From NCBI RefSeq assembly GCF_014645895.1, contig NZ_BMMP01000015.1, forward strand, positions 1 through 64,000: a stretch of 64,000 nucleotides of DNA. Direction: 5' to 3'. The stretch comes from Streptomyces daqingensis (GTDB lineage Bacteria > Actinomycetota > Actinomycetes > Streptomycetales > Streptomycetaceae). Both the position numbers and the translations under genes were made by a program. Within the stretch, counting starts at the first letter, position 1; every line of letters begins with the position of its first letter. Below, piece by piece: positions 46,240 to 50,152 of this stretch. The notes below the pieces were generated by a model. That model was given only the letters and a program-made list of their open reading frames with translations, made no database searches and had not been told where the DNA came from.

Positions 46240-47103
46240 GTGAACGCGCAGCCGCCCCCCACCGTGCCCAAGCCGTCGCCGAGCTCGCTCATCCTGACCT
46301 TCTACGGCGCGTACGGACGCGACTACCCCGACGGCACGGTGCCGATCGCCACCCTCGTCCGGCTCATGGGCGCCGTCGGCGTCGACGCCCCGTCCGTACG
46401 CTCGGCGGTCTCCCGGCTCAAACGACGCGGGCTGCTCACCGCAGACCGGCCCGGCAGCAAAGCCGCCGGGTACGCCCCCTCGGCGGCCGGCCGCCAGCTC
46501 CTGGACGACGGAGACCGCCGCGTGTACGCCAAGCCGCAGCCGGACGGGCGCTGGCTGCTCGCCGTCTTCTCCGTCCCCGAGAGCGAACGCGGACGCCGCC
46601 ACATACTGCGGTCCCGGCTCGCCCGGCTGGGCTTCGGCAACGCCGCCCCGGGCATCTGGATCGCGCCGTCCCACCTGGAGGAGGAGACCCGGCACAGCCT
46701 CACAAGGCTCGGCCTCTCCGCGTACGTGGACCTCTTCAGCGGCACGCACGAGGGCTTCGAGCCGACCGCGGAAGCCGTTGCGCGCTGGTGGGACCTGGAC
46801 GCGCTGGCCGCGCTGCACCACTCCTTCCTCAACGTCCACGAACCCGTGCTCCGCTCCTGGTCGAAGCGCCGCCGAGTACCGCCCGAAGAGGCGTACAGCG
46901 ACTACCTGCCCGCCCTCGACGCCTGGCGCCGGCTTCCCTACGCCGACCCGGGGCTGCCGACGTCCCTGCTGCCCGCCCCATGGCCAGGCGAACGGTCGGC
47001 GGAGGTGTTCTTCGCACTGCACGGCAAGTTGAGCGGCCCCGCCCGGGAGCACGCCGTGGGGCGGCCGGGGGCCGTCGGGTCGGAGGCTGGGGCCAGGGTG
47101 TAG
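46240..47103 (+). CDS. PaaX-family transcriptional regulator
   Basis: A 287-residue regulator of the PaaX family. The N-terminal winged helix (about residues 15-75) contains PSVRSAVSRLKRRGLL. The central and C-terminal PaaX domains have WLLAVFSVPESERGRRHILRSRL, GNAAPGIWIAPSHL, and the WDLDAL block. PaaX-type repressors respond to aryl-CoA thioesters such as phenylacetyl-CoA, so pairing with an aryl-CoA ligase is sensible. GTG start, no ribosome site. The repeat of the HNH element begins 27 bp after its stop codon. Confidence 0.88.
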   Translation: MNAQPPPTVPKPSPSSLILTFYGAYGRDYPDGTVPIATLVRLMGAVGVDAPSVRSAVSRLKRRGLLTADRPGSKAAGYAPSAAGRQLLDDGDRRVYAKPQPDGRWLLAVFSVPESERGRRHILRSRLARLGFGNAAPGIWIAPSHLEEETRHSLTRLGLSAYVDLFSGTHEGFEPTAEAVARWWDLDALAALHHSFLNVHEPVLRSWSKRRRVPPEEAYSDYLPALDAWRRLPYADPGLPTSLLPAPWPGERSAEVFFALHGKLSGPAREHAVGRPGAVGSEAGARV

Positions 47104-47130
47104 CCCGGGGGCAAGTCTTGGGGCGCAAGG

Positions 47131-47487
47131 CCTGGGGGCGCGCAGGGCTTGGGCCGAGGGTGCCTGGGGGTGCTGGGGGTGGGGGCGCGGGGGTGGGTTT
47201 CGTTGGTGTCGGGGTGGTGTGCCGGGTGGTTGACGGTTGGGGGGTTGCGGTGGCCTGGCGGGCTACGGGGGGTGGGGTCGGGGCTGGTGGTGTGTGTGGG
47301 TGTGGTTTGGGGGTGGTGGGTGGTTGGGGTTCACACCTCGGTGTGGGGTTGCGGTGGGGAGTGTTGTTGAGGGTGGTGGGGTTGCTGTGGCGGGCTGCTG
47401 CCGCGTGGTGGCCGGGGCGTGTGGAGGTAGGTGCCGGTAGGGGCACCGCGACGTCCGGCCTCAGACCAGCCCTGGCACACGCACAAC
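47131..47487 (+). repeat. Left copy of the long inverted repeat (G/T-rich strand)
   Basis: A 357-bp block strongly skewed to G and T on the plus strand. It matches 49179-49534 in inverted orientation, with about 9 mismatches and one 1-nt gap by hand count (about 97%). Five runs of three or more G in 47165-47197 form a textbook quadruplex motif. The reading frames inside it are Pro/Thr-rich on the opposite strand and lack normal codon bias. Confidence 0.9.
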
Positions 47488-47601
47488 AATCGGGCGGCCG
47501 ACGAAGCCGTCTGCCGCCGCGCGCAGGAGTAATTCCCCGCCGGGTCCCGAGTAGGACAGCACGCTGCTGGGATCGGCGGAGTGGCTGACGCGCGAGATCA
47601 A

Positions 47602-48933
47602 CTACTCACGGTAGTCATGCGGGTGGCTCGTGTAGTGATGGCCGGTGGGAGTCGTCCAGGTGACTGTTCCGGTTGTCTCCTCCCTCTCAACTCCCCATCC
47701 GGCGCGGTGTTTGAGCAGGTGATGTCGTCGGCACAGTGGAATGAGGTTCTTCGGCGTCGTCTCCCCGCCCTGGTGTGGACTGAGTTGGTCGAACGGCTCG
47801 ACATGATCCAGATCGCAGCGGTGGGCAGGCATCTGGCAGGAGGGGAACATGCACACCCGATCGCGGGCGATGACATGTCGCGCTGTCTCGGCAGTCGGCT
47901 TGTAGGTGGCGGGATCGGTCTTGACGACCATTCCCGAGTCCGGGTCGGTCAACAGCCGCCGCCACACGCTGTCTTCAGCGAACGCGATCGTGCGGGCCTG
48001 TGACGCGGTGATGGGTCCGTACCCCTTCAGTTCGCCCGGCTGCTGCCCGACTCCCATCAGTGCGTCCAGCGGGACCGTCACCTGCACCACTGCCGCCGAA
48101 CGTCCGGAAGAACCAGCGCCTTGACCGGAGCCGTTGAGAACCAGGTCGAGCAGAGCGTCGACCCGGCGCTGCGCCAGCGTCCACTCCTCCGTGCGCTCTC
48201 GCCCACTCGTCTCGAGCAGGGTCTCCGCATGGGCGTCGACGGCCTGATCCAGCCGGGCGGCCTGCTCGGCCGGAAGGTAGGCGCCCCAGTGCGCCATCCC
48301 GTCACCGAGTTCGCGGTGCGTGATCTCCCGGCCCCGCTTGCGGTGCGTGTGGCGCACCTCCACACCCTCCGGGTCCAGCCGGGCCACCGACCGGTGCAGG
48401 GCGCGGCGCGTCTGACCGCACGCCAGCGACGGCATCTTCGGCACCACATCCGCCTCGACCGATGCGGCGACCTCCGGGTCGAGAACGTCCGTGATCTCGA
48501 CCATCGCCTTGGCCTGCATCCAGGAGATCTCTCCGGCCTCAAGCAGACCGAACGTCGTCGGAAGGCGCGCGTCCAGCTCCCGCGCCACATGGAGGCGGTC
48601 CTCGGCGGTCGCCCCCGAAAGCTTCAGAGCGCACGCGACCTCCTCGGCCGCGAAGTTCCACTGCCCGGCCACGTCCTCGTTCCAGGTGCCCCCCGGAAGG
48701 GCCTCCTCAGCGTCATCGTGCAGGGCCGCCAGAAGCTGTGCCTGCATGGCGTGGATCCACGAAACATGGCGTTCGAGCGCCTTCAAGGCGTCGATGCGGC
48801 CTTCGTGCGAGAGCTTCTCCGCGCTGAGCACGTCGAGCAGAACTGCCGTGTCGGCGCCCGGCACTGCCTGCGTGAGATACGAAGCCCACTCGTCCGGCGT
48901 TCCCGGTTCTGATGTGTCCCCGCGCTCGCCCAC
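47602..48933 (-). CDS. DUF222/HNH endonuclease (13E12-type)
   Basis: A 443-residue protein: a long helical DUF222 region (about 20-310) and a C-terminal HNH nuclease (about 361-408). The HNH residues are intact: Cys361 and Cys366, Asp376-His377, Asn396, Cys401 and His404, so it can fold with zinc and cut DNA. DUF222/HNH proteins are the 13E12 family of mycobacterial repeat elements. Start: GTG at 48933 has GGAAGG at good spacing; a GTG at 48984 gives 17 more residues but a ribosome site that abuts the codon. It is not interrupted and codon use looks normal, so the gene is probably functional. Confidence 0.82.
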   Translation of the reverse strand: MGERGDTSEPGTPDEWASYLTQAVPGADTAVLLDVLSAEKLSHEGRIDALKALERHVSWIHAMQAQLLAALHDDAEEALPGGTWNEDVAGQWNFAAEEVACALKLSGATAEDRLHVARELDARLPTTFGLLEAGEISWMQAKAMVEITDVLDPEVAASVEADVVPKMPSLACGQTRRALHRSVARLDPEGVEVRHTHRKRGREITHRELGDGMAHWGAYLPAEQAARLDQAVDAHAETLLETSGRERTEEWTLAQRRVDALLDLVLNGSGQGAGSSGRSAAVVQVTVPLDALMGVGQQPGELKGYGPITASQARTIAFAEDSVWRRLLTDPDSGMVVKTDPATYKPTAETARHVIARDRVCMFPSCQMPAHRCDLDHVEPFDQLSPHQGGETTPKNLIPLCRRHHLLKHRAGWGVEREETTGTVTWTTPTGHHYTSHPHDYRE

Positions 48934-48994
48934 AGCCGCCCCCCTTCCAGCCCCGACTCCCGTCCCCCGACGGGCTTCCAGCACCCTTCCATTA

Positions 48995-49047
48995 TCTCGA
49001 ACGAATCGATAAAAGCCCAGCTCAGGCTTGGTTTTCTCTCGAACGAA
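48995..49047. promoter_or_regulatory. Direct repeats upstream of the HNH gene
   Basis: TCTCGAACGAA occurs at 48995-49005 and 49037-49047, 42 bp apart (four turns), upstream of the HNH gene and in a locally AT-rich stretch. It is a candidate binding site for a regulator or the nuclease itself. Confidence 0.4.
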
Positions 49048-49178
49048 GACGCATCTGAGGAAGCGGGAACTCCGCTCTTCCAGCTCGGCTCAGGCGACCT
49101 CGCGCAAAGCTCGGCCTCGAGCTGACGAAAACCCATGTCGAGAGCCGAGCACCGCCTCGGGACGTCAATCCTCGAACC

Positions 49179-49534
49179 GTTGTGCGTGTGCCAGGGCTGG
49201 TCCGAGGCCGGACGTCGCGGTGCCACTACCGGCACCTACCTCCACACGCCCCGGCCACCACGCGGCAGCAGCCCGCCACAGCAACCCCACCACCCTCAAC
49301 AACACTCCCCACCGCAACCCCACACCGAGGTGTGAACCCCAACCACCCACCACCCCCAAACCACACCCACACACACCACCAGCCCCGACCCCACCCCCCG
49401 TAGCCCGCCAGGCCACCGCAACCCCCCAGCCGTCAACCACCCGGCACACCGCCCCCACACCAACGAAACCCACCCCCGCACCCCACCCCCAGCAGACACA
49501 GGCACCCTCGGCCCAAGCCCTGCGCGCCCCCAGG
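49179..49534 (-). repeat. Right copy of the long inverted repeat
   Basis: A 356-bp block, the reverse complement of 47131-47487. On the plus strand it is C/A-rich. Its outer part (about 49469-49490 on the plus strand) holds the quadruplex-forming G runs on the minus strand. The remaining sequence from 49535 to 49606 is the promoter region of the DUF3099 gene. Confidence 0.9.
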
Positions 49535-49594
49535 CAGGCACCGGCCCCGCACCGACCAGCCAAGCTGCCGGCCTCGCCTGTGCGACCCGAGTAA

Positions 49595-49606: not shown

Positions 49607-50152
49607 ATGTACGCGCGACGGCGCAGGCGCTATCTGGTGCTGATGACCACGTGTCTGGTGCTCTTCATCAGCGCTTGGACTTTCGTGCGGCTGCTGTCCG
49701 TCCCCGCCGCGATCGGAATGTGCCTGGTAGCCATGGTCATCCCGCCGGTCGCTGCGATCATCGGGAACCGTCGCGAGCCGGACGACCGCTGGTTCGACGA
49801 GCCCGACGAGGGCCCCTTCGACGGGTCTGAGGACCCTCGCTTCGACAACCCGCAGAGGACCGGCAGAGACGAACCCGGCCGAGACGAACCCGGCCATGCA
49901 GAGCCCGGCCGAGAAGGCACCGCTCGGAACGGGACCGGTCGGAACGGGACCGGTCGGCGCGGGGCTGGGCGGCGAGGGGCCGGACGATGGCCGGGTAGGC
50001 GAGGCGCGGGGCGCGCCAGTGGCTCCGGTGGCTCCAGTGGCCCCGGCGGGTCCGATGGCTCCAGTGGCCCCGGCGGCTCCGGTGGCTCCTCCCGCGTCCG
50101 TCGAGGGCTGCTGAGGAGGCGCTCAGGTCGCGGTGGCGCGGCTACTCACTGA
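49607..50152 (+). CDS. DUF3099-family membrane protein
   Basis: A 181-residue protein: a basic start, two membrane helices (about 9-28 and 33-52; LVLMTTCLVLFISAWTFVRLL and the PAAIGMCLVAMVIPPVAAII stretch), then the conserved RREPDDRWFDEPDE. The C-terminal 90 residues are low-complexity repeats (GRDEPG, RNGTGR, GGSSGPGGS) with repeated DNA units. It belongs to the DUF3099 family of actinomycetes, function unknown. It lies immediately right of the inverted repeat element. The tail is probably disordered and may vary between strains. Confidence 0.72.
   Translation: MYARRRRRYLVLMTTCLVLFISAWTFVRLLSVPAAIGMCLVAMVIPPVAAIIGNRREPDDRWFDEPDEGPFDGSEDPRFDNPQRTGRDEPGRDEPGHAEPGREGTARNGTGRNGTGRRGAGRRGAGRWPGRRGAGRASGSGGSSGPGGSDGSSGPGGSGGSSRVRRGLLRRRSGRGGAATH

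Follow-up and report, generated by a model that had tools for sequence, protein, structure and literature searches.

A DUF222/HNH endonuclease gene of the 13E12 type lies in Streptomyces daqingensis between two long, nearly identical inverted repeats, and the arrangement is probably (roughly 0.66) a composite, in which a 13E12-like HNH gene has taken up residence in the spacer of a foldback-type element. Most likely, the HNH enzyme came to the mobile-looking repeat as a passenger. The block is an insertion, its arms belong to a repeat family, the HNH gene and the arms each occur without the other, and the same geometry is found in a second genome. The relevant features of the window, that is, the whole 64 kb stretch of DNA analysed, are as follows.

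46240-47103, forward strand: PaaX-family regulator, left neighbour (Pfam), with a C-terminal tail unlike that of its relatives
About 47070-49590, no strand: approximate extent of the whole insertion, judged against the empty PaaX-DUF3099 site of relatives G089 and G204; either edge may be off by tens of bp, last PaaX codons replaced
47130-47487, forward strand: left arm of the foldback element's long inverted repeat, with its inner edge at 47487, homologous to the dispersed arms of G510 and to the arm of G089
47488-47601, no strand: spacer remnant from the left arm to the HNH stop codon, 114 bp
47602-48984, reverse strand: intact DUF222/HNH (13E12-like) endonuclease gene (Pfam domains, motif alignment), likely start GTG at 48933
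48985-49060, reverse strand: predicted promoter/operator of the HNH gene, with two GTTCGA motifs, one followed by GATAAT
49061-49178, no strand: spacer from the HNH promoter region to the right arm, delimited on the sequence
49179-49535, reverse strand: right arm, an inverted copy 97.2% identical to the left arm, inner edge at 49179
49607-50152, forward strand: DUF3099 protein, right neighbour (Pfam and comparison with relatives)

Aligned over 358 columns, the arms are 97.2% identical, with nine mismatches and one 1-nt gap, and the 1,691-bp spacer between them (47488-49178) encloses one intact DUF222/HNH gene. These values reproduce the first-pass annotation, which had counted about 97% identity, the same mismatches and gap, and 1.69 kb enclosed. 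An inverted repeat like this is not expected by chance, and the pair is the sole one of its kind in the window. The further or solo copies envisaged for the same genome did not appear: its 6.5 Mb, a draft assembly of 50 contigs, hold only two arm copies, both in the window, and no HNH-free copy of the repeat. The differences between the arms are clustered: the outer 108 bp hold eight of the ten, and one run of 203 bp has none (P ~0.002 under random placement). Such clustering fits patchy gene conversion, and constraint is conceivable too. Recent origin or gene conversion, as proposed at the outset, stays plausible for the near-identity as a whole, with the proviso that the pattern of differences could also be read as constraint. 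Between the arms there is no transposase, only the DUF222/HNH gene and overlapping frames without a Pfam match. At 47130/49535 there is no convincing target-site duplication, and the outer edges of the G510 copies are fuzzy as well; because neither a duplication nor a sharp outer boundary is defined, transposition is no more than a candidate entry route of the repeat. An Rfam search of the window returned no match.

The insertion itself is clear from comparison with relatives. The order AMP-ligase, PaaX, DUF3099, salicylyl-CoA hydroxylase is conserved in G089 and G204, where 17 and 55 bp separate the PaaX stop from the DUF3099 start, versus 2,503 bp in the window. Since two relatives with the same gene order have an empty site, the block of arms and HNH gene is an insertion between PaaX and DUF3099, within a sample of the genus from which the closest sister strain of S. 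daqingensis is absent; the empty site in relatives, which the first-pass annotation proposed to look for, is thus there. The spot is variable, as G510 holds an unrelated insert of ~2.9 kb in the same gap and DUF3099 is inverted relative to PaaX and salicylyl-CoA hydroxylase in four relatives (G358, G088, G197 and G589; L218-L221). From these comparisons the gap looks like an insertion hotspot. The G510 insert (L233 4825-7620) carries a helix-turn-helix (XRE-like) gene. Separately, the C-terminal part of the window DUF3099 gene (50004-50093) consists of degenerate 9-nt repeats of the GGCTCCGGT type, which bring the protein to 181 aa.

The enclosed gene is complete. Pfam recognises DUF222 (PF02720) with an E-value of 6.8e-32 and HNH (PF01844) at the curated cutoff. 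Of the HNH-motif residues that 11 homologues share without exception (Cys, Asp-His, Asn and His) none is missing, which confirms the intact metal residues noted earlier. The true start is probably GTG at 48933, because a ribosome-binding-like GGAAGGGGGGCGGCT lies just upstream and homologues start there; the protein would then have 443 aa. The region at 48985-49060 is shared with the G089 homologue and aligns with a conserved region at other HNH loci. Upstream of HNH genes, for example at L129, L131, L133 and L143 as well as in the window, this putative operator/promoter reads TTCACTCGTTCGAGTG ... TGACCTGG ... CACTCTGTGTGAGCGATAATGG. Two further loci (L145 and L148) have TCGAAC-N4-GTTYGA boxes upstream of HNH that are similar to mycobacterial SOS boxes. 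An AlphaFold model of the protein has a mean pLDDT of 63.6, and a search of PDB sequences gave no match.

HNH genes of this type do not require the arms. The one DUF222 gene of S. daqingensis has homologues in 17 of 393 genus genomes and in many named Streptomyces and Streptacidiphilus. Flanking inverted repeats of the window type are absent from the ~35 other HNH loci, and the arm profile R1 matched none of these other loci except L032 in G089. In S. jeojiense (four copies) and S. milbemycinicus (two), the common part comprises the gene plus ~120-200 bp upstream, and the copies diverge at the stop codon or within ~25 bp of it. By sequence comparison, the HNH gene with ~150 bp upstream is thus a minimal mobile unit in other genomes and is independent of the arms. 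The arms are no part of a standing HNH element, since the other loci lack them and the multi-copy genomes share only the gene and its upstream segment. G521 carries one full HNH/DUF222 gene and six fragments across contigs (L240, L244-L249), which suggests repeated gain and decay. Scans with the HNH protein gave only distant matches in phage and plasmid records and none in viral contigs, and a phage-borne element was dropped as a candidate. An anti-phage defence system was likewise dropped, with 0 families matched by PADLOC models, as was a tRNA-linked island after consideration.

Conversely, the arms do not require the gene. G510, in which no HNH homologue was found, has 38 arm cores by motif search, 18 on the forward and 20 on the reverse strand. 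Most are paired (~20 inverted pairs of ~1 kb each), and where paired they always run plus then minus, pointing inwards. The copies are intergenic and occur among flanking genes of all orientations. In 14 of 16 measured pairs the spacers are 283-665 bp long and related to each other; the two longer ones hold an IS30-type transposase (1,779 bp) and other genes (3,534 bp). The latter (L303 2450-5983), where the arms stand 3.5 kb apart and enclose genes of ordinary appearance, an AraC-type regulator among them, may represent a captured segment or else two single arms unconnected with each other. The arms are mosaics of alternative modules, and identity within pairs (0.77) is not above that between pairs (0.76), as expected if arms exchange sequence. 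Many spacers (e.g. L250, L254, L265, L304, L310) carry a 72-bp hairpin (GATCTTGTACTGGTCCACG...), which in L250 has miRNA-family Rfam matches below the cutoff. The IS30-type element (L302 2553-3791; HTH_38 and rve) sits in a foldback spacer and its ends match the two hairpin halves; because the hairpin corresponds to the two IS ends joined together, it looks like a MITE of this element. Among the copies examined, no autonomous relative that shares the ends of the arms was found, the IS30-type element lying inside the spacer. The arm pairs were found with an arm query, having been missed by a lenient +1/-1 self-BLAST of the G510 loci.

Beyond G510, the arm core occurs among the 393 genus genomes only in S. 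daqingensis (one pair) and G089 (one copy), apart from three one-mismatch singletons, the same number as in reversed-pattern controls; the search used a short motif and tolerated at most one mismatch, so that diverged arms would escape it. A composition-corrected profile built from G510 arms only, run against 2.19 Mb of other DNA, gave exactly three matches: the G089 arm (L032; E 1.7e-8) and the two window arms (6.7e-5 and 0.0022), the latter only ~70% identical to G510 arms. On this evidence the homology across the three genomes is not a composition artefact. The arms are a separate, dispersed family of long inverted repeats, restricted to three genomes among those of the Streptomyces group that were searched. 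Arm-like matches in ~40 other genomes (E 1e-3 to 1e-7) were rejected as a product of G/T-rich composition, and G089 alone stood out.

G089 is the one other place where arm and gene meet. Its only arm adjoins its only HNH homologue, at a locus other than that of the window (with a VOC neighbour) and with the partner arm absent; the gene is interrupted by one TAG. The alignment of the window with G089 scores 564, against a maximum of 465 in 500 shuffles. In both genomes the HNH gene points its 3' end at the arm's inner edge, from a distance of 114 bp in the window and ~50-80 bp in G089. The two genes are not sisters: that of G089 groups with Streptacidiphilus (97/93), in a tree with several long branches in which the placement of the window gene is unsure. 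With one arm and one gene in 5.7 Mb, the chance of this adjacency is roughly estimated at 1 in 10,000. That the two adjoin in both genomes possessing both counts against a purely accidental passenger. Two separate HNH lineages are unlikely to have arrived by accident at the inner edge of one rare repeat, and their position suggests that HNH genes have occupied this niche more than once. G089 is the best hint that the repeat spacer may be an HNH target.

In the order of events that we infer, a noncoding dispersed element of ~1 kb with inverted repeats of ~320-358 bp, foldback- or long-TIR-MITE-like, would have entered the PaaX-DUF3099 gap, and a stand-alone DUF222/HNH gene would then have landed in the spacer of that copy. 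The enzyme may act as a selfish homing-type nuclease with a putative target there: a cut in an unoccupied spacer would be repaired from an occupied copy, the arms supplying homology. Putative gene conversion between the arms, or recent insertion, would keep them near identical. Counting against this composite reading are the undefined outer boundary, the lack of an HNH-free copy in the S. daqingensis genome and the ~70% identity to the G510 arms. A stronger version of the link, which we consider less likely than not, makes the palindromic repeat family a multi-copy target: DUF222/HNH proteins would recognise its spacer or inner edge and home into it, with the arms as repair homology, and perhaps mobilise the repeats too. 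A single recognition motif may underlie both the GGTTCAC-centred palindrome of the arms and the TTCACTC..GAGTG operator of HNH promoters.

The association of gene and repeat noted in the first-pass annotation is real, with arms around the window gene and an arm beside that of G089. Its further idea that the two form one HNH-driven element is not supported, as the arms occur without HNH in G510 and HNH without arms at ~35 loci. Under that idea, DUF222/HNH would mobilise the long-inverted-repeat element, the window copy being autonomous, the G510 copies non-autonomous and the G089 copy a decayed relic. An intact window gene with arms 97% identical, an HNH gene adjoining an arm in each of the two genomes that contain gene and arm, and the interrupted gene and single arm in G089, as a relic would have, all speak for it. 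Yet the gene multiplies in S. jeojiense and S. milbemycinicus as gene plus ~150 bp only, the other HNH loci have no arms, the two arm-associated genes are not sisters, and G510, richest in arms, has no HNH, leaving this reading rather unlikely. The occurrence of the same repeats around unrelated DNA, named beforehand as the outcome that would speak against a link, is largely what G510 displays in its ~20 pairs, in another genome than that of the window. A looser link, in which HNH targets the repeat spacer, is made possible by G089.

The remaining readings fare worse. Template switching could have placed an inverted copy of the DNA downstream of HNH on the far side of the gene, making a foldback element unnecessary; the near-identity of the window arms and the position of the G089 arm on the 3' side of HNH only would suit such a local duplication, but the many convergent pairs in G510 show pairing to be a property of the arm family, and we regard it as improbable. 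Long near-identical inverted repeats around a single gene can also support homologous inversion, so that the arms might recombine, flip the HNH gene and control it. There is, however, no recombinase between them, and the conserved promoter region lies inside the spacer, so a flip would not part gene from promoter; such a switch is very improbable. Palindromes are known assembly artefacts, and the assembly is a 50-contig draft. A chimeric origin is nonetheless the least credible reading, since the arms differ at 10 positions, hold a unique gene between them and are matched by an independent family of repeats from a different genome.

Actinobacteria widely carry DUF222/HNH genes, M. tuberculosis among them, and no defined biological function is attached to these genes; the occurrence of two that are not sisters next to one rare palindromic repeat provides a concrete candidate target. 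The repeat family, which numbers 38 arm cores in G510, forms convergent pairs with mosaic arms and hosts IS30-type and HNH guests, has no description among the open-licence papers searched.

Among known systems, the closest are the 13E12/REP13E12 loci of mycobacteria, which likewise combine DUF222 and HNH, occur sporadically and in several copies at different loci, and are associated with repeats and gene conversion. In M. tuberculosis they rank with the strongest hotspots of gene conversion and have no defined function (PMC13061034). Some 13E12 genes were assigned to LexA control in a network study (PMC4181829). The window gene differs in lying between the arms of a long inverted repeat, whose distribution marks it as a different family from REP13E12. 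Foldback elements and long-TIR MITEs resemble the arm family in their long inverted repeats, short, variable and mainly noncoding middles, and dispersed intergenic copies, as in G510. Unlike them, the family has neither an identified target-site duplication nor an identified autonomous partner sharing its ends; in G510 the ends of the IS30-type element are inside the spacer rather than at the arm termini; and high copy number is seen in G510 (38 cores), the window genome having one pair. IS elements are known to target palindromic repeats (PMC1525189), and IS30 inserts at near-palindromic hot spots (PMC9333248). REP/BIME repeats as IS landing sites (PMC1525189) are similarly palindromic, intergenic and attractive to inserted elements, but the arms described here are about ten times longer and host both an HNH gene and an IS30-type element. 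Free-standing HNH homing endonucleases share the one-gene minimal mobile unit and the empty sites elsewhere; their usual hosts, introns and phage genes, are absent here, and homing into a palindromic spacer is a candidate behaviour of the window enzyme.
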